Positions 19,257 to 25,677 of a stretch of DNA of 64,000 bases are shown piece after piece. Both the position numbers and the translations under genes were made by a program. Position 1 is the stretch's first letter, and each line of letters begins with the position of its first letter. Source of the stretch: Streptomyces sp. NBC_00569 (GTDB taxonomy: Bacteria; Actinomycetota; Actinomycetes; Streptomycetales; Streptomycetaceae); assembly GCF_036345255.1 (NCBI RefSeq), contig NZ_CP107783.1, forward strand, positions 248,001 through 312,000, in the 5' to 3' direction. The notes beneath the pieces are model-generated. The model searched no databases. It was not told where the DNA came from and saw nothing but the letters and a program-made list of their open reading frames with translations.

Positions 19257-19448
19257 TCAGTGCTGGCGGTGCTTGACGGGCTCAGCAGCGCCTCGGGCAC
19301 GGTCGTGGACCTCGTGCAGGGACTCGTTGGCCTTGCTCTTCGCCTGGTCGGCCCTGCCCGTGGCCTCACTGCGGCGATCGCCGGTGACCTTGCCGGTCAT
19401 CTGCTTGGCCTTGCCCTTGGTCTTGTCCGTGCCGGCCTTACCTGCCAT
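19257..19448 (-). CDS. CsbD family stress protein
   Basis: A 63-residue, highly charged protein beginning MAGKAGTDKTKGKAKQ, followed by MTGKVTGDRRSEATGRADQAK and KSKANESLHEVHDRARG. This is the CsbD-like pattern (KGKVKEAVGK... type). In Bacillus the gene is SigB-controlled; function unknown. GAGGAGTTGTC precedes the ATG. A terminator follows. Confidence 0.85.
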   Translation of the reverse strand: MAGKAGTDKTKGKAKQMTGKVTGDRRSEATGRADQAKSKANESLHEVHDRARGAAEPVKHRQH

Positions 19449-19592
19449 GACAACTCCTCGTTCTCTGGGGCGTCTTGTGTGACGCCTGCTCCTCCAACGT
19501 AGGAGAGACGAAGGAAGATCGCCCGCCGGACAGTCACACTGTGTGATCCGACCTCGTGGCCGGGGGTGCGCGGCCGTAACGGCCCGAGCGTC

Positions 19593-19617
19593 GCGTGTCC
19601 GAGACGATCACGGGTAC
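19593..19617 (+). promoter_or_regulatory. SigB-type promoter for the LigD-like gene
   Basis: GCGT, 15 bases, GGGTAC. It lies 42 bases before the GTG start of the phosphoesterase gene, leaving a short leader with the ribosome-binding site GAAGGAGG. Confidence 0.6.
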
Positions 19618-19658
19618 TCGACCGCAACGGACCCGCGGCCCCGAAGGAGGGAGCTGCC

Positions 19659-20336
19659 GTGAGCGAGAAGGACAAACTGCGGACCTATCGCGGGGAGCGG
19701 CACTTCGACCGGACGCCCGAACCGAGCGGCGAGCGCGCGACGAAGGACGAGGCGTCACCGGCCATGGGCGAGGAGCCCACGTTCGTGGTGCAGATCCACG
19801 AAGCGAGCACGATGCACTTCGACTTCCGCCTCGAGGTCGAGGGAGTACTCAAGTCCTGGTCGGTCCCGAAGGGGCCTTCCTCCGACCCGCAGGACAAGAG
19901 ACTCGCCATCCCCACCGAGGACCACCCTTTGAACTACATGGATTTCGAGGGGGTGATCCCAACGGACGAGTACGGCGGCGGAACCGTCATCGTCTGGGAC
20001 CGTGGTACGTACCGGCCGACCAGCCATGACAAGCGGAACCGGCCGGTGCCGTTCGGGCAGGCCTTGGAGGACGGCCACGCGACGTTCGAGCTGCACGGCA
20101 AGAAGCTGCATGGACAGTACGCACTCACCCGGTTCCACGGCCGCGAGGAAGCGAGCGGCGCGGTCGCCAAAAGGCCGACATGGCTTCTCGTTCATACCGG
20201 TCACGGACACGGGAGCAGCGCCGGCACCCCCGATCCACGGCGGGCCCGGTCGGTTCGCAGCGGCCGAACGCTGCGGCAGGTCGCCGAGGCGCCGGACGCG
20301 CCCACATGGGAGGCGAACGACGGTGAACGGGAATGA
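19659..20336 (+). CDS. LigD-type 3'-phosphoesterase (DNA ligase D N-terminal domain protein)
   Basis: A 225-residue protein whose core is the 3'-phosphoesterase domain that in LigD trims 3' ends during non-homologous end joining. Visible family residues are HFDFRLEVEGVLKSWS-type (His, Asp, Arg of the metal site near residues 53-58), VPKGPSSDP, LNYMDFEGVIPTDEYGGG and LHGQYALTRF. It is a stand-alone version without ligase or polymerase domains. The C-terminal 50 residues (GHGHGSSAG, SVRSGRTLRQVA) are a tail seen in Streptomyces homologues. GTG 19659 has GAAGGAGG eight bases upstream. A ku fragment at 14543 is the only other NHEJ trace in the window. Confidence 0.88.
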   Translation: MSEKDKLRTYRGERHFDRTPEPSGERATKDEASPAMGEEPTFVVQIHEASTMHFDFRLEVEGVLKSWSVPKGPSSDPQDKRLAIPTEDHPLNYMDFEGVIPTDEYGGGTVIVWDRGTYRPTSHDKRNRPVPFGQALEDGHATFELHGKKLHGQYALTRFHGREEASGAVAKRPTWLLVHTGHGHGSSAGTPDPRRARSVRSGRTLRQVAEAPDAPTWEANDGERE

Positions 20337-20524: not shown

Positions 20525-20549
20525 GCATAGTTGGATCACTCCTGGGTAC
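20525..20549 (+). promoter_or_regulatory. SigB-type promoter for the SseB-like gene
   Basis: GCAT, 15 bases, GGGTAC, ending 77 bases before the ATG of the SseB-like gene. Same pattern and spacing as at 8249, 19593 and 22018. Confidence 0.55.
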
Positions 20550-20626
20550 CGGAGAGCGGAGACGGCAGACCCCCACCCGGCGAACCCACGCCGGGCGGCC
20601 CACTCGGAGCCACGAGGGGACAAACG

Positions 20627-21043
20627 ATGTGTGACAACAACATCCCCGAGGAACTGTTCGCGGCCGCCGCCCAGGACGCCCTACGCGACCTCCACCGAGC
20701 ACCCGACGACGTGGCCGCGCTGGACACACTGGCCGCGTGCGACATTCTCGTTCCTGAACCTACCGAACTCGACACTCACGACCACTCGGAAGACGGCGGA
20801 CTGACGCTTCCCGTGATCGACGATCCACCACGCCTCCGGGCCGTCCCCGTCTTCACATCGGCAGAGCGGATGGGCCAGGCACTGCCCGACATTCTCGTGA
20901 GTCACCAGATACAACTAGGGCTGCTGGCAGCCAACTGGCCCGCCGACGAAGACCTGGCACTGCTCATCGACCCTGGCCACCACGACGGCGTGATCCTCAC
21001 CAGTAAGGGCGTACGCGCCCTGCTTGCCCCGCCCCGGCCTTGA
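20627..21043 (+). CDS. SseB-like domain protein
   Basis: The 138-residue product resembles the SseB N-terminal domain: LRAVPVFTSAERMGQALP matches the 'VPVFTS' core and is followed by the strand-helix pattern ending LLIDPGHHDGVILTSKGVRAL. The first 45 residues are an acidic helical extension (DDVAALDTLAACDILV). Cys3 and Cys38 are the only cysteines. ATG 20627 is preceded by GAGGGGA. Function unknown; SseB proteins have no established catalytic role. It lies 300 bases before the ADF-like gene in the same direction and carries a SigB-type promoter. Confidence 0.7.
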   Translation: MCDNNIPEELFAAAAQDALRDLHRAPDDVAALDTLAACDILVPEPTELDTHDHSEDGGLTLPVIDDPPRLRAVPVFTSAERMGQALPDILVSHQIQLGLLAANWPADEDLALLIDPGHHDGVILTSKGVRALLAPPRP

Positions 21044-21358
21044 GCGACCGCTCACCAAGCGCTCATGACGGCAGTCAACACGGCGCAACCGCAGACGGAA
21101 ACCGCACCCGTGGCCACCATCAGGGAAGCCGTTTGCCCGCCCGGCTGCCCAGAGCCCGGGCACATGAATATGTCTCCGCTGCATGACCAAGCGGGGAGAC
21201 TCGTCGCCCCTCGCAGCATGCGCCCGTCAGCTCTCGGAGGCGTAACAGTGCCACCTATCCTGGACCTATGGACTGCCGCACAACCCCTGATCCACGACCT
21301 CCCGGTCAAGGGTTCGTTGCGTTCGCCGAACGCCCACTCCAGATCGGAAGGTGTCGTC
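21044..21358 (+). other. Leader region of the ADF-like gene, open frame of uncertain reality
   Basis: The ADF-like frame is open back to ATG 21065, which would add 98 residues (containing CPPGCPEPGH and Pro/Ala-rich sequence). This extension lacks a ribosome-binding site at its start and is not part of the ADF fold. I leave it out of the gene but note that a longer protein is possible. Confidence 0.35.
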
Positions 21359-21763
21359 GTGACCAGCACCATCGCAGTCGAAGACAGCTGTATAGACGCC
21401 TTCAACAAGCTCAAAATCAGTCGGCACGTCACCACCGTCCTGTACCGGCTCAACGACGGTCTGAACACCCTCGCCCTTGATTTCGAGGGAAACCTGACCC
21501 ACGACGAACTCCTCAAAGCGTTGCCGTCCGATCCACGCTTCGTGGCCCATGAACTCTGCTTCGCCGACCAGGACGGCAGCCGAAGAGAGGCGATCGTGCT
21601 GATCCACTGGTCCCCCCAAGGCACCAGCCCCGAGCAAGAAGCGGCATACTCTGCCTGCTACAGCGCTCTCAAAAACCATCTTGACGGCGTCGACATCTCC
21701 GTCGAGGCCGCGAGCCGGTCCGACCTGGCGTACGACCGGCTGGTACTCATCGCCCGTACCTGA
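21359..21763 (+). CDS. ADF/cofilin-fold protein in a bacterium
   Basis: A 134-residue protein from GTG 21359 (GGAAGG seven bases upstream). It aligns over its full length with eukaryotic ADF/cofilin, which binds and severs actin. The N-terminus TIAVEDSCIDAFNKLK matches the cofilin start (GVAVADESLTAFNDLK), YRLNDG matches FGLND, LLKALPSDPRF matches FLEKLPENDC, and IVLIHWSP matches IVFFTWSP. From WSP a helix-containing stretch of 27 residues aligns without gaps, ending KNHLDGV. In yeast cofilin the actin-contact residues in this stretch are Arg96 and Lys98; here residues 92 and 94 are Glu. The C-terminal YDRLV matches YDSVL. Actin binding is therefore doubtful; partner and role unknown. Confidence 0.88.
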   Translation: MTSTIAVEDSCIDAFNKLKISRHVTTVLYRLNDGLNTLALDFEGNLTHDELLKALPSDPRFVAHELCFADQDGSRREAIVLIHWSPQGTSPEQEAAYSACYSALKNHLDGVDISVEAASRSDLAYDRLVLIART

Positions 21764-22042: not shown

Positions 22043-22158
22043 TAAAGACATAAAACAGGCGGTATGCACACACTCGGGTTCCTGCTGCGAACGGGCAGGC
22101 CCGGTGAGAACGGAGTGTGACGGGACGCCGGCAACCACGACGCAGGAGGGAGAGGCAG

Positions 22159-24018
22159 ATGGCGCGCTCGGTCGGTATCGATCTCGGCACGACGAACTCG
22201 GTGGTCTCGGTCCTCGAGGGCGGTGAGCCCACCGTGATCACCAACACGGAAGGGGCCAGGACCACCCCGTCGGTCGTGGCCTTCACCAAGAGCGGTGAGG
22301 TGCTCGTAGGCGAGGTGGCCAAACGACAGGCCGTGACGAATGTGGAACGCACCGCGCGCTCCGTGAAACGGCACATGGGAGACCACGGCTGGCGGTTCCC
22401 TGAAGACGCAGACATCGACGGCAAGCGGTACAACGCTCAGGAGATCTCCGCGCGCGTGCTGCAGAAGCTCAAGCGAGACGCCGAGTCCTACCTCGGTGAG
22501 GACGTCACCGACGCCGTCGTCACCGTGCCGGCGTACTTCGACGACACGCAGAGGCAGGCGACCAAGGAAGCGGGCGAGATCGCCGGTCTGAACGTCCTGC
22601 GCATCGTCAACGAGCCGACAGCCGCGGCACTGGCGTACGGACTGGACAAGGAGAACGACCAGACGGTGCTGGTCTTCGACCTGGGTGGCGGCACCTTCGA
22701 CGTCTCGATCCTCGAGATGGGCGAGGGCGTCATCGAGGTGAAGTCCACCAACGGCGACACCAACCTCGGCGGTGACGACTGGGACCAGCGCATCGTGGAT
22801 CACCTGGTCCAGCAGTTCAAGAACGGCCACGGCGTCGATCTGTCCAAGGACAAGATGGCGGTGCAGCGCCTGCGGGAGACCGCCGAGAAGGCGAAGATCG
22901 AGCTGTCCTCGTCCTCCGAGGCGACCATCAACCTGCCCTACATCACGGCGTCCGCCGAGGGCCCGCTGCACCTGGACGAGAAGCTCACGCGCGCCCAGTT
23001 CCAGCAGCTCACGTCCGATCTGCTGGAGCGCTGCAAGACGCCGTTCCACAATGCGATCAAGGATGCCGGCATCAAGATGTCGGACATCAACCACGTGATC
23101 CTCGTGGGCGGCTCGACGCGTATGCCGGCCGTGAGCGAGCTCGTCCGCGAACTCTCCGGAAAGGACCCGAACAAGGGTGTGAACCCGGACGAGGTCGTCG
23201 CCATCGGTGCCACTCTGCAGGCCGGTGTCCTCAAGGGTGAGGTCAAGGACGTCCTGCTCCTCGACGTGACCCCGCTGTCCCTCGGTATCGAGACCAAGGG
23301 AGGGATCATGACGAAGCTCATCGAGCGCAACACCACGATCCCGACCAAGCGTTCCGAGATCTTCACGACGGCCGAGGACAACCAGCCGTCCGTGCAGATC
23401 CAGGTCTTCCAGGGCGAGCGCGAGATCGCGGCGTACAACAAGAAGCTCGGGATGTTCGAGCTCACCGGTCTGCCGCCGGCCCCGCGTGGTGTCCCGCAGA
23501 TCGAGGTCGCCTTCGACATCGACGCCAACGGCATCATGCACGTGACCGCGAAGGACCTGGGCACGGGCAAGGAGCAGAAGATGACCGTCACCGGCGGCTC
23601 CGCCCTGCCGAAGGACGACATCAACCGCATGGTCCACGAAGCAGAAAAGCACGCCGAGGAAGACCACCGACGCCGCGAGGCCGCCGAGACGCGCAACCAG
23701 GGCGAGCAGCTCGTCTACCAGACGGAGAAGTTCCTCAAGGACAACGAGGACAAGGTCCCCGGCGAGGTCAAGACCGAGGTCGAGGAGTCGCTCACCGAGC
23801 TGAAGGAGAAGCTCAAGGGCGAGGACACCGCCGAGATCCGCACCGCCACCGAGAAGGCCGCCGCCGTCTCGCAGAAACTGGGCCAGGCCATATACGCCCA
23901 GGGCGCGCAGGCCGCCGGCGGTCCCGAGGCCGGCACCCCGGGCGACGGGCAGAAGGCCGCTGACGACGACGTCGTCGACGCCGAGATCGTCGACGACGAC
24001 AAACCCGAGGCGGGCTGA
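22159..24018 (+). CDS. dnaK: Chaperone DnaK (Hsp70), second-type copy
   Basis: The 619-residue chaperone has the ATPase signatures GIDLGTTNS (residues 6-14), [12 protein letters not shown] and [13 protein letters not shown]. The substrate-binding domain follows ([14 protein letters not shown], then [12 protein letters not shown]), then a helical lid and an acidic tail ending DAEIVDDD. The start ATG has GGAGGGAGAGGC upstream. It is followed two bases later by grpE, but not by dnaJ or hspR, which accompany the main Streptomyces dnaK operon. With the SigB-type promoter, this looks like a separate stress-regulated copy. Its J-domain partner must come from elsewhere. Confidence 0.95.
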
Positions 24019-24020
24019 CC

Positions 24021-24515
24021 ATGAACAAGGAGCGCCTGGAGATCACAGAGCCGGCACTGCGGCGCCTGCTCGAGGAGCGCACGGCCGACCTGCAGCGGGT
24101 GAAGGCGGAGTACGACAACTACCGCAAGCAAGTACGGCGGGATCGCATGGCCGTGCGGGAGATCGCCGTCGCCAACGTCCTTCGCGCGCTGCTTCCCGTG
24201 CTCGATGCCGTGGACCGCATGTGTGTGCACGAACCGATCACGCCGGGTCCGAACGACGTCACCGACGCCCTGCGTACCCAACTCGGCGCGCTGGGCCTCC
24301 AGTCGTTCGGCGAGAAGGGCGACGCGTTCGACCCTGCCTTCCACGACGCAGTGGCCCATCATGTCTCCTCGGACGCCGATCGGCTCACCTGCTCGCAGGT
24401 CCTCCGCCTCGGGTACCGAGTCGGTGACCACCTGCTGCGTCCGGCCCACGTGGAGGTCACCGGACCGCCTCGACCCGATGGGAATCCCCGCCCTGGGCTC
24501 GGCACAGGGAGCTGA
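24021..24515 (+). CDS. grpE: Nucleotide exchange factor GrpE
   Basis: Hsp70 nucleotide exchange factor of 164 residues. The N-terminal coiled coil (ERTADLQRVKAEYDNYRKQVRRD) is followed by the four-helix part (LRALLPVLDAVDRM) and the C-terminal beta domain with KGDAFDPAFHDAVAHH, HHEAV-like in the family. The C-terminal end GDHLLRPAHVEV is the typical 'xVxKxxR' strand. It is shorter than the main actinobacterial GrpE (about 200 residues), since the acidic N-terminal extension is missing. Start ATG lies two bases after dnaK stop. Confidence 0.93.
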   Translation: MNKERLEITEPALRRLLEERTADLQRVKAEYDNYRKQVRRDRMAVREIAVANVLRALLPVLDAVDRMCVHEPITPGPNDVTDALRTQLGALGLQSFGEKGDAFDPAFHDAVAHHVSSDADRLTCSQVLRLGYRVGDHLLRPAHVEVTGPPRPDGNPRPGLGTGS

Positions 24516-24657: not shown

Positions 24658-25098
24658 GTGGGGGTCGAGTTGCGGAAACGATGGGGTGCACAGCCGGCGT
24701 GGGCGAGGTGGACCCTAGTGGTGTACGTGACCGGGTTTCTCGTAGGGACTCGCACCCACGTCATCGATGTGGTCCGTGACGGTACCCACGCCTACGCGAT
24801 GTTCCCCCAAGTGTCCTTGCGGATGTTCTTCCTGAGCCTCGTCGTGCTCGATCCGCTGGTGGTCGTGCTGGTGGGACTCGTGCGGCTAGAAGGGGTCTGG
24901 CTGGCGGGCGCCGTGATGGCGCTGGACCTGTGCGGCAACTGGTGGGGCAACTGGCACTGGCTTCGCGACGATCCTTCGCAGCTGCTGCGGCTGCTACCTC
25001 TCACGCTGTTCGGAGCGTTCGTCGTCGCGTCCACGCTTCCCCTGCATCGCGTTGCCGGGACGACAGCCAGATCCGAGACAGCACTGCCGTCTGCCTGA
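24658..25098 (+). CDS. Hypothetical integral membrane protein
   Basis: A 146-residue protein with four likely membrane helices: LVVYVTGFLVG, LRMFFLSLVVLDPLVVVLVGL, GVWLAGAVMALDLCGNWW and LLRLLPLTLFGAFVVAS. The first loop has THVIDVVRDG. No enzyme motif is visible. The GTG start at 24658 is weakly supported. Topology puts both ends in the cytoplasm if all four helices are real. Family unknown. Confidence 0.6.
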   Translation: MGVELRKRWGAQPAWARWTLVVYVTGFLVGTRTHVIDVVRDGTHAYAMFPQVSLRMFFLSLVVLDPLVVVLVGLVRLEGVWLAGAVMALDLCGNWWGNWHWLRDDPSQLLRLLPLTLFGAFVVASTLPLHRVAGTTARSETALPSA

Positions 25099-25344: not shown

Positions 25345-25677
25345 CCAGGCCCTCGTCTCGCTCGGGAAGGGATGCCGCCGATCCGCTCCTGGCGAGGCCC
25401 CGGCGACGCCGGCCGGCATCCCCACGCGGACAAGGGCTACGACTACAACCACCTGCGGCAGTGGATATCCCAGCGAGGGATCCGGCACCGCATCGCCCGC
25501 AAGGGCATCAAGATCTCGCAGCGACTCGGACGACACCGGTGGACCATCGAACGCACCATGTCCTGGCTCGTCGCCTGCCCCGCCCCCACCGCCCCTACGA
25601 ACGCAATGCCGACCACTTCCTGGCGTTCACCGGCATCGCCCGCACCTTCATCCGCTCTCGCAGGCTCACCCGCATGA
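25345..25677 (+). pseudogene. IS5-group transposase remnant (C-terminal DDE part)
   Basis: From HADKGYDYNHLRQW through QRLGRHRWTIERTMSWL the sequence matches the C-terminal third of IS5-type DDE transposases, including the second-half Asp and the final Glu of the catalytic triad (ERTMSW). The beginning of the protein is gone and the end needs a frame change (EPADHFLAF-like appears in another frame). Only about 110 residues of a 270-residue protein remain. Terminal inverted repeats were not identified. Confidence 0.8.

Follow-up and report, generated by a model that had tools for sequence, protein, structure and literature searches.

A gene in the 64,000-nucleotide stretch of Streptomyces sp. 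NBC_00569 analysed here (the window, at its full length) encodes a real ADF-homology protein of eukaryotic ancestry. Cofilin disassembles actin filaments in plants, animals and fungi, and the transfer of cytoskeletal regulators from eukaryotes to bacteria is rare. With a probability of roughly 60%, we read the window protein as a domesticated ADF-fold binding module that has gained a new face, belongs to an accessory stress programme, and no longer regulates actin, having a bacterial partner instead. The features discussed are located in Table 1.

The occurrence of ADF/cofilin in bacteria is already known and is not new here. The Cofilin/ADF entry of Yutin 2009 reads 'A homolog only in Streptomyces (112791749), probable HGT' (PMC2651865, quoted from this entry), the database record PDB 5IVU, released in 2017, is titled 'Crystal Structure of Streptomyces griseoflavus Cofilin', and many relatives carry the names 'cofilin family protein' or 'actin-binding ADF family protein' in RefSeq. 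These recorded Streptomyces cases correct the first-pass annotation, which had placed an ADF regulator outside the usual bacterial kit. Besides PMC2651865, our literature search (titles, term counts and the beginnings of abstracts) found no paper on the question, none with griseoflavus and cofilin together, and no study of the plasmid-borne 'cofilin family protein'. The new part is the ordering of these proteins into two bacterial types, together with the stepwise dismantling of the G-site in type 2.

Table 1. Location of the features (window positions; L017, L018 and L020 are separate loci with their own numbering)
Feature	Position	Strand	Basis or remark
CsbD-like stress protein	19257..19448	-	PF05532, E 1.1e-10
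Stand-alone LigD 3'-phosphoesterase domain	19566..20336	+	Pfam/NCBIfam profile matches
SseB N-terminal domain protein	20531..21043	+	PF07179, E 2e-9
ECF-type promoter-like element GAC-N16-CGTT	21296..21318	+	close relatives have AAC-N16/17-CGTT in the same place
Ribosome-binding site GGAAGG	21346..21351	+	this or a similar form common to close relatives
Type-2 bacterial ADF-homology protein, 134 aa	21359..21763	+	GTG start, stop included
GNLTHDEL, nearly constant type-2 motif	codons 44-51, 21488..21511	+	42 type-2 rows
Trp of the WSP motif	codon 84, 21608..21610	+	yeast Trp88
Glu replacing yeast Arg96	codon 92, 21632..21634	+	alignments
Glu replacing yeast Lys98	codon 94, 21638..21640	+	alignments
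DnaK (Hsp70)	22117..24018	+	Pfam/NCBIfam profile matches
GrpE	24021..24515	+	over the Pfam cut-off; NCBIfam matches under theirs
Type-1 ADF	L017 1471-1887	+	
Type-1 ADF	L018 1483-1896	-	
Type-1 ADF	L020 1483-1896	-	

Family membership and phylogeny

Profile search matched the window protein to Pfam PF00241 (Cofilin_ADF) with 78.7 bits, against a gathering score of 22.4 (E 3.8e-22), and aligned residues 11-128 with profile positions 1-122 of 125. The protein has this single ADF-H domain and, with 134 residues, falls within the size of about 130-170 residues usual for ADF/cofilin proper. Among PDB chains its sequence matched actophorin (7sog, E 7e-16) and yeast cofilin (1cfy, E 2.6e-11), and local alignment with yeast cofilin scored 137, where 1000 shuffles averaged 27.0 and never exceeded 48. 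The open frame lies where the first-pass annotation put it. That annotation had reported an end-to-end alignment with yeast cofilin, including 27 gap-free residues from the WSP motif; the 1cfy match covers residues 3-128, and the gap-free stretch was borne out, as the match has no gap from Trp84 to its end. An ADF-H fold was predicted with a pLDDT of 91.8 and a TM score of 0.90 to both yeast cofilin and actophorin, so that the structure prediction and the profile search which that annotation had proposed as checks each returned the ADF family. The ADF-H domains of coactosin, GMF and twinfilin gave far weaker sequence matches. NCBIfam offered no family for the window protein and no credible one for four other ADFs.

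Phylogeny was assessed by maximum likelihood with 94 rows and 138 columns, rooted on plant ADF and actophorin. Left out were L032 for its long branch, L018 because it is identical to P0190, the partial L024 and the near copies P0011, P0014, P0022, P0023 and P0025; L033 was in none of the trees. All 37 type-2 rows formed one clade (support 100/100) on a stem of 1.3 changes per column, and this clade fell outside the group of fungi plus type 1 (96/92), although with 138 columns many forks are weak and type 2 may be drawn outward by long-branch effects. Of the 25 type-1 rows, 22 formed a clade (99/96) that joined the agarics Lyophyllum, Asterophora and Termitomyces (93/93); P0190 stood beside the fungus Dispira (98/87), and P0126 and 5IVU stood apart. 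In the best tree, type 2, the window gene included, is thus a separate Streptomyces clade and type 1 is nested among fungal cofilins, an apparent fungus-to-bacterium transfer that was possibly repeated. The best free trees, which are the sole source of this count, suggest two or more captures of a fungal cofilin besides type 2. A single bacterial clade of 67 rows remained compatible with the data in the AU test (p 0.538, with 5IVU counted among the 33 others), and forcing that clade gave a tree 1.7 log units better than the free quick tree. The first-pass annotation had called for a phylogeny to tell an ancient from a transferred gene: that question is answered in part, in favour of a transferred gene.

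The griseoflavus protein 5IVU, a type-1 member, resembles the window protein in being bacterial, in having a single ADF-homology domain and in its fold (TM 0.87, 20% identity). It differs in grouping with agaric-type fungal cofilins and in keeping the basic helix, which is remodelled in the type-2 window protein. Much closer is WP_227300865.1 of S. longhuiensis p1, a RefSeq 'cofilin family protein' with 71% identity over 99% of the window protein. From the Streptomyces plasmid proteins so named, an annotation by name only, we saw no essential difference.

Changes at the actin-contact site and the constant motif

We take Arg96, Lys98, Lys105 and Arg110 of the long helix of yeast cofilin to be the basic G-site residues that contact actin, and Arg80, Lys82, Arg135 and Arg138 to be those of the F-site. 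In the window protein the four G-site positions hold Glu, Glu, Tyr and Asn, and yeast Arg109 corresponds to Lys105. At the F-site, Arg80 is matched by Arg76, and Lys82, Arg135 and Arg138 by Ala78, Ile131 and Thr134. Relative to eukaryotic ADF/cofilin (yeast 1CFY, Acanthamoeba actophorin 7SOG/1AHQ), the window protein replaces Met99 in addition to the four G-site residues, and the constant GNLTHDEL motif is new in its type. The equivalence of Glu92 and Glu94 with yeast Arg96 and Lys98, proposed in the first-pass annotation, was the same in three alignments, and equal ranges (query 51-121 to human 71-141) put the two residues at human cofilin positions 112 and 114. In a cofilactin study, cofilin helix 111-119 belongs to the G-site and Lys96 of human cofilin-1 is part of the F-site (PMC5945598); by the alignment ranges these are window residues 91-99 and Arg76. 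The G-site of the window protein is therefore broken, and its F-site appears partly kept. As Arg76, on the F-site side, and Lys105 are kept, weak actin binding would be possible for this protein.

Residues were counted in 25 type-1 and 43 type-2 rows, with 5IVU placed among the eukaryotes. Type 1 has Lys at yeast position 96 in 21/25 rows, at 98 in 22/25 and at 105 in 20/25, and Arg or Lys at 110 in all 25, so its actin-contact site looks mostly intact and, judged by residues, actin-competent in most rows. In type 2, Tyr occupies position 105 in 31/43 rows and Asn or an acidic residue position 110 in 36/43; a basic residue (Arg or Lys) is found at 109 in 41/43 and at 80 in 30/43, the latter being Gln in 10 of the 12 rows of subclade B. 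Position 96 is Glu throughout subclade A, to which the window belongs (15/15), Glu in 11 and Lys in one of the 12 rows of subclade B, Gln in 10/12 of subclade C, and Gln (2) or Arg (2) in subclade D. Position 98 is more varied in subclade A (Gly 9, Glu 3, Met 3 of 15 rows); it is Arg in 12/12 rows of subclade B, Glu in 10/12 of subclade C, and Lys (2), Arg (1) or Glu (1) in subclade D. The eukaryote-conserved residues Lys98, Met99, Ser104, Lys105 and Asp106 are kept in 2, 1, 3, 0 and 1 of 42 type-2 rows, compared with 23, 21, 23, 21 and 18 of 26 type-1 rows.

By parsimony on the tree, the type-2 ancestor is reconstructed with Tyr at 105 and Asn at 110, Arg still at 98, and either Lys or Glu at 96. 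The change to Glu at 96 follows the branching of L019, and 98 was lost later. Lys105 and Arg110 were therefore lost first, after which 96 became acidic and then 98 changed. The charge reversal described by the first-pass annotation is thus real in the window, but the double reversal is no hallmark of the bacterial family: type 1 mostly keeps its lysines, and within type 2 position 98 is Glu in only 3/15 rows of subclade A and is still Arg throughout subclade B. Likewise, both residues it singled out have changed, but the loss is wider and began at the other two positions. Because the G-site charges are lost in the alignment, the type-2 protein most likely does not depolymerise actin. The window protein is a member of the PF00241 family, but the name actin-depolymerising factor would be wrong for it: the G-site residues were checked and are missing.

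As these charges disappeared, other residues are held constant in type 2. Among 42 type-2 rows (L032 left out), Arg22, Thr26, Leu46, Thr47, Leu51, Ala69, Arg75 and Leu128 occur in every row with a letter at that position, Arg30, Gly44 and Asn45 in 95% of rows, and His48 in 98%; each of the type-2 constant residues occurs in under 20% of 32 eukaryotic rows. The constancy of GNLTHDEL is inflated, because L002-L016 were retrieved with two search patterns of which it was one. Among the type-2 places found by the Pfam scan, 14 of 16 keep its NLT, the exceptions being L032 (NWT) and the fragment L033. Residues 44-51 form a turn and part of helix 48-54 in the model, presumably across the sheet from the actin helix 91-105. 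We infer that Arg22, Thr26, Arg30 and the motif make up a new working surface.

Distribution, neighbourhood and regulation

PF00241 was found in 18/392 Streptomyces genomes at E <= 0.01 (17 over the cut-off) and in 0/14 control genomes. The 20 places comprise 16 of type 2 (15 genomes) and four of type 1 (4 genomes), types being assigned from sequences and trees and, for the short L024 and L033, by eye. Across the phylum, 4/396 genomes matched at E <= 0.01, of which that of the window was the sole one over the cut-off. A search with the window protein returned 26 proteins, from Streptomyces in every case with the organism named. It also matched six Streptomyces plasmid records, three of them typed mobilizable, and no phage records; the three plasmids examined are all linear. 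On its 10.3 Mb record the window gene itself sits about 269 kb from one end. Type-2 genes are accessory and are carried on chromosomes and linear plasmids. Type-1 ADFs are also named in Embleya and Kitasatospora, and among the matches listed those of all three genera have at least 56% identity to L017. Two shortened frames were seen: L033 1483-1776 (-), in genome G270, looks like a decaying type-2 copy, and L024 1474-1812 (-), in genome G078, like a decaying type-1 copy.

Directly downstream of the window gene lies a dnaK-grpE pair (22117-24515). Beyond it, a frame of 146 residues at 24658-25098, without a Pfam match, may by eye be a small membrane protein, and by eye the frame 25372-25677 resembles the C-terminal part of an IS5-type transposase, possibly an insertion-sequence remnant. 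A conserved operon partner was sought by blastp clustering of mechanically called genes in 15 loci and the window; besides ADF, no cluster of similar genes occurred in more than four loci. Nor did any neighbour family dominate in the Pfam scan of 139/153 neighbours, where methyltransferases made up 7/139. In the three examined plasmids, genes for Asp23/Gls24, CBS, PRC-barrel, hemerythrin or STAS proteins lie within 6 kb, and DUF6766 is also among the plasmid ADF neighbours.

A hemerythrin gene lies within 25 kb of ADF in 5/5 genomes tested (of 18 with ADF) and within 13 kb in four of them; in G323 it is 697 bases away and is the sole such gene of that genome. Random positions, even when confined to the arms, gave 5/5 within 25 kb in 0 of 200,000 draws, a limit that was set after the distances had been seen. 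Genes for ATP-dependent ligases were within 25 kb in only one of the five genomes, and DUF6766 was absent from four and about 28 kb from ADF in the fifth. In G162 a STAS domain and a subclade-C type-2 ADF domain are joined in one protein (L045 9756-10550, -). STAS domains are of the kind found in anti-sigma-factor antagonists. No second full-length STAS-ADF protein was found in 199 relatives and the plasmid set, with at most 13 candidates per genome among the rows listed. Overall, the ADF surroundings look like stress islands, in the window with CsbD, DnaK-GrpE and the LigD phosphoesterase domain, and without a widely common neighbour.

Two upstream blocks are common to seven genes of subclades A and B. 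Within 160 bases upstream, AAC-N16/17-CGTT precedes 7/27 ADF genes (L002-L006, L019 and L021, at -61 to -67) versus 1/245 of the remaining genes called in those loci and in the window; allowing either A or G in first place, which adds the window and L012, gives 9/27 versus 2/245. The matching ADF genes are related and so not independent. In L021 the spacer has diverged and both boxes are kept. The AAC form is absent from L007, L008, L009, L022, subclade C and the three type-1 genes; of the four subclade D rows, three lack it. In the window's genome GGAAC-N16/18-CGTTGA occurs 32 times, versus 9 for the reversed pattern. We take AAC-N16/17-CGTT to have the form of ECF sigma promoters, and an ECF sigma factor probably switches on the type-2 gene in subclades A and B. 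Two candidate regulators were considered. Sigma BldN, with a CGTTGA -10 element, would be a possible one; a text search found nothing on this, and two other papers gave no consensus. Sigma E was set aside, as the sigma E promoters described in PMC6767563 mostly have CGTC in the -10, compared with CGTT here.

Candidate partners and alternative explanations

The history that we favour would begin with an ancient transfer of a eukaryotic ADF/cofilin gene into Streptomyces, followed by its domestication as type 2. The ADF fold is predicted to have been kept, the alignment shows that the G-site charges for holding actin have been lost, and the nearly constant residues would have become a working surface that, judging by ADF topology, may lie opposite the actin helix across the sheet. 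Judging by its neighbours, the product would be a small intracellular binding protein of an accessory stress programme, with an ECF sigma factor as the probable switch in subclades A and B on the basis of the motif, and a putative bacterial partner. The altered partner proposed by the first-pass annotation is the reading best supported here.

We found no eukaryote-type actin in 36 Streptomyces genomes, 18 of them ADF-bearing, by PF00022 search. All 36 had PF00022 matches over the cut-off; the best scored 45.5 bits over less than half of the profile (43.3 bits in the window's own genome), which is consistent with MreB-class proteins. Two frames read by eye are MreB-like, and in G000 and G042 a stronger match (E <= 1e-7) is a second Mbl-like gene. 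That of G000 (L053 1066-2433, -; G000:C1:6516500-6516988) lies about 3.4 kb from another actin-family match taken for mbl.

The ubiquity of these proteins favours an alternative in which type 2 regulates bacterial actin (MreB/Mbl, possibly the second Mbl-like paralogue) through an altered interface and cuts or caps its filaments when the cell is stressed or sporulates. A PF00022 match at E <= 1e-7 was present in 10/11 genomes with subclade A or C versus 18/98 ADF-less genomes (4/18 in the first set and 14/80 in the second; Fisher p 2.8e-6), but the A and C grouping and the cut-off are both post hoc. Moreover, the ADF-less G019 (1.6e-7) and G008 (2.5e-7) narrowly miss this cut-off, and 1/7 genomes with other ADFs passes it. 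The Mbl gene tree held three independent pairs on supported branches, with a sign test median p of 0.5, and shared ancestry explains the association equally well, so that it is a lead and not a result. The mreB gene of S. coelicolor is reported to be under the envelope-stress factor sigma E (PMC6767563), but the CGTT found here departs from the mostly CGTC -10 elements described for that factor. We consider regulation of bacterial actin unlikely as it stands; as a candidate partner, bacterial actin is the most interesting one, at similarly long odds.

A second alternative, that a transferred gene is drifting without function, would fit its patchiness (type 2 in 15/392 Streptomyces genomes), the fragment L033 and dN/dS values that reach 0.59. 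In 15 hand-picked type-2 pairs dN/dS was 0.21-0.59, and it was 1.00 in one type-1 pair; values near 0.5 in some pairs are compatible with relaxed constraint. Against drift stand this range across the type-2 pairs, open frames in divergent subclades, a promoter and ribosome site common to subclades A and B, and the near-constant motif, and we give it little credence. The protein might instead act, after lysis or secretion, on the actin of eukaryotes encountered by the bacterium, such as fungi or amoebae, as its eukaryotic origin and the actin-competent residues of most type-1 rows would allow; with the G-site lost in type 2, and none of the matches listed in our literature search joining cofilin, Streptomyces and contractile injection systems, this is very unlikely. 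DnaK shares the actin fold and its gene and that of GrpE directly follow the ADF gene, but none of the genes called in L002-L016 (15 loci) falls into a blastp cluster with the window's DnaK, which makes it extremely improbable that the protein binds this chaperone and tunes its nucleotide cycle.

The most far-reaching version of the domesticated-module reading, which we hold to be decidedly unlikely, is that a captured eukaryotic actin regulator had its grip dismantled, gained a new face and now controls a bacterial target within a sigma-factor-controlled stress and dormancy programme, the boldest such target being a second Mbl-type bacterial actin. If true, this would be a bacterial cytoskeleton regulator built from a eukaryotic one. 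The question addressed is the fate of such a transferred protein in a cell without its target. Both states occur in one genus, type 1 with a mostly intact site and type 2 with a site dismantled in an order that can be read from the tree, and the question is therefore directly testable in laboratory Streptomyces.
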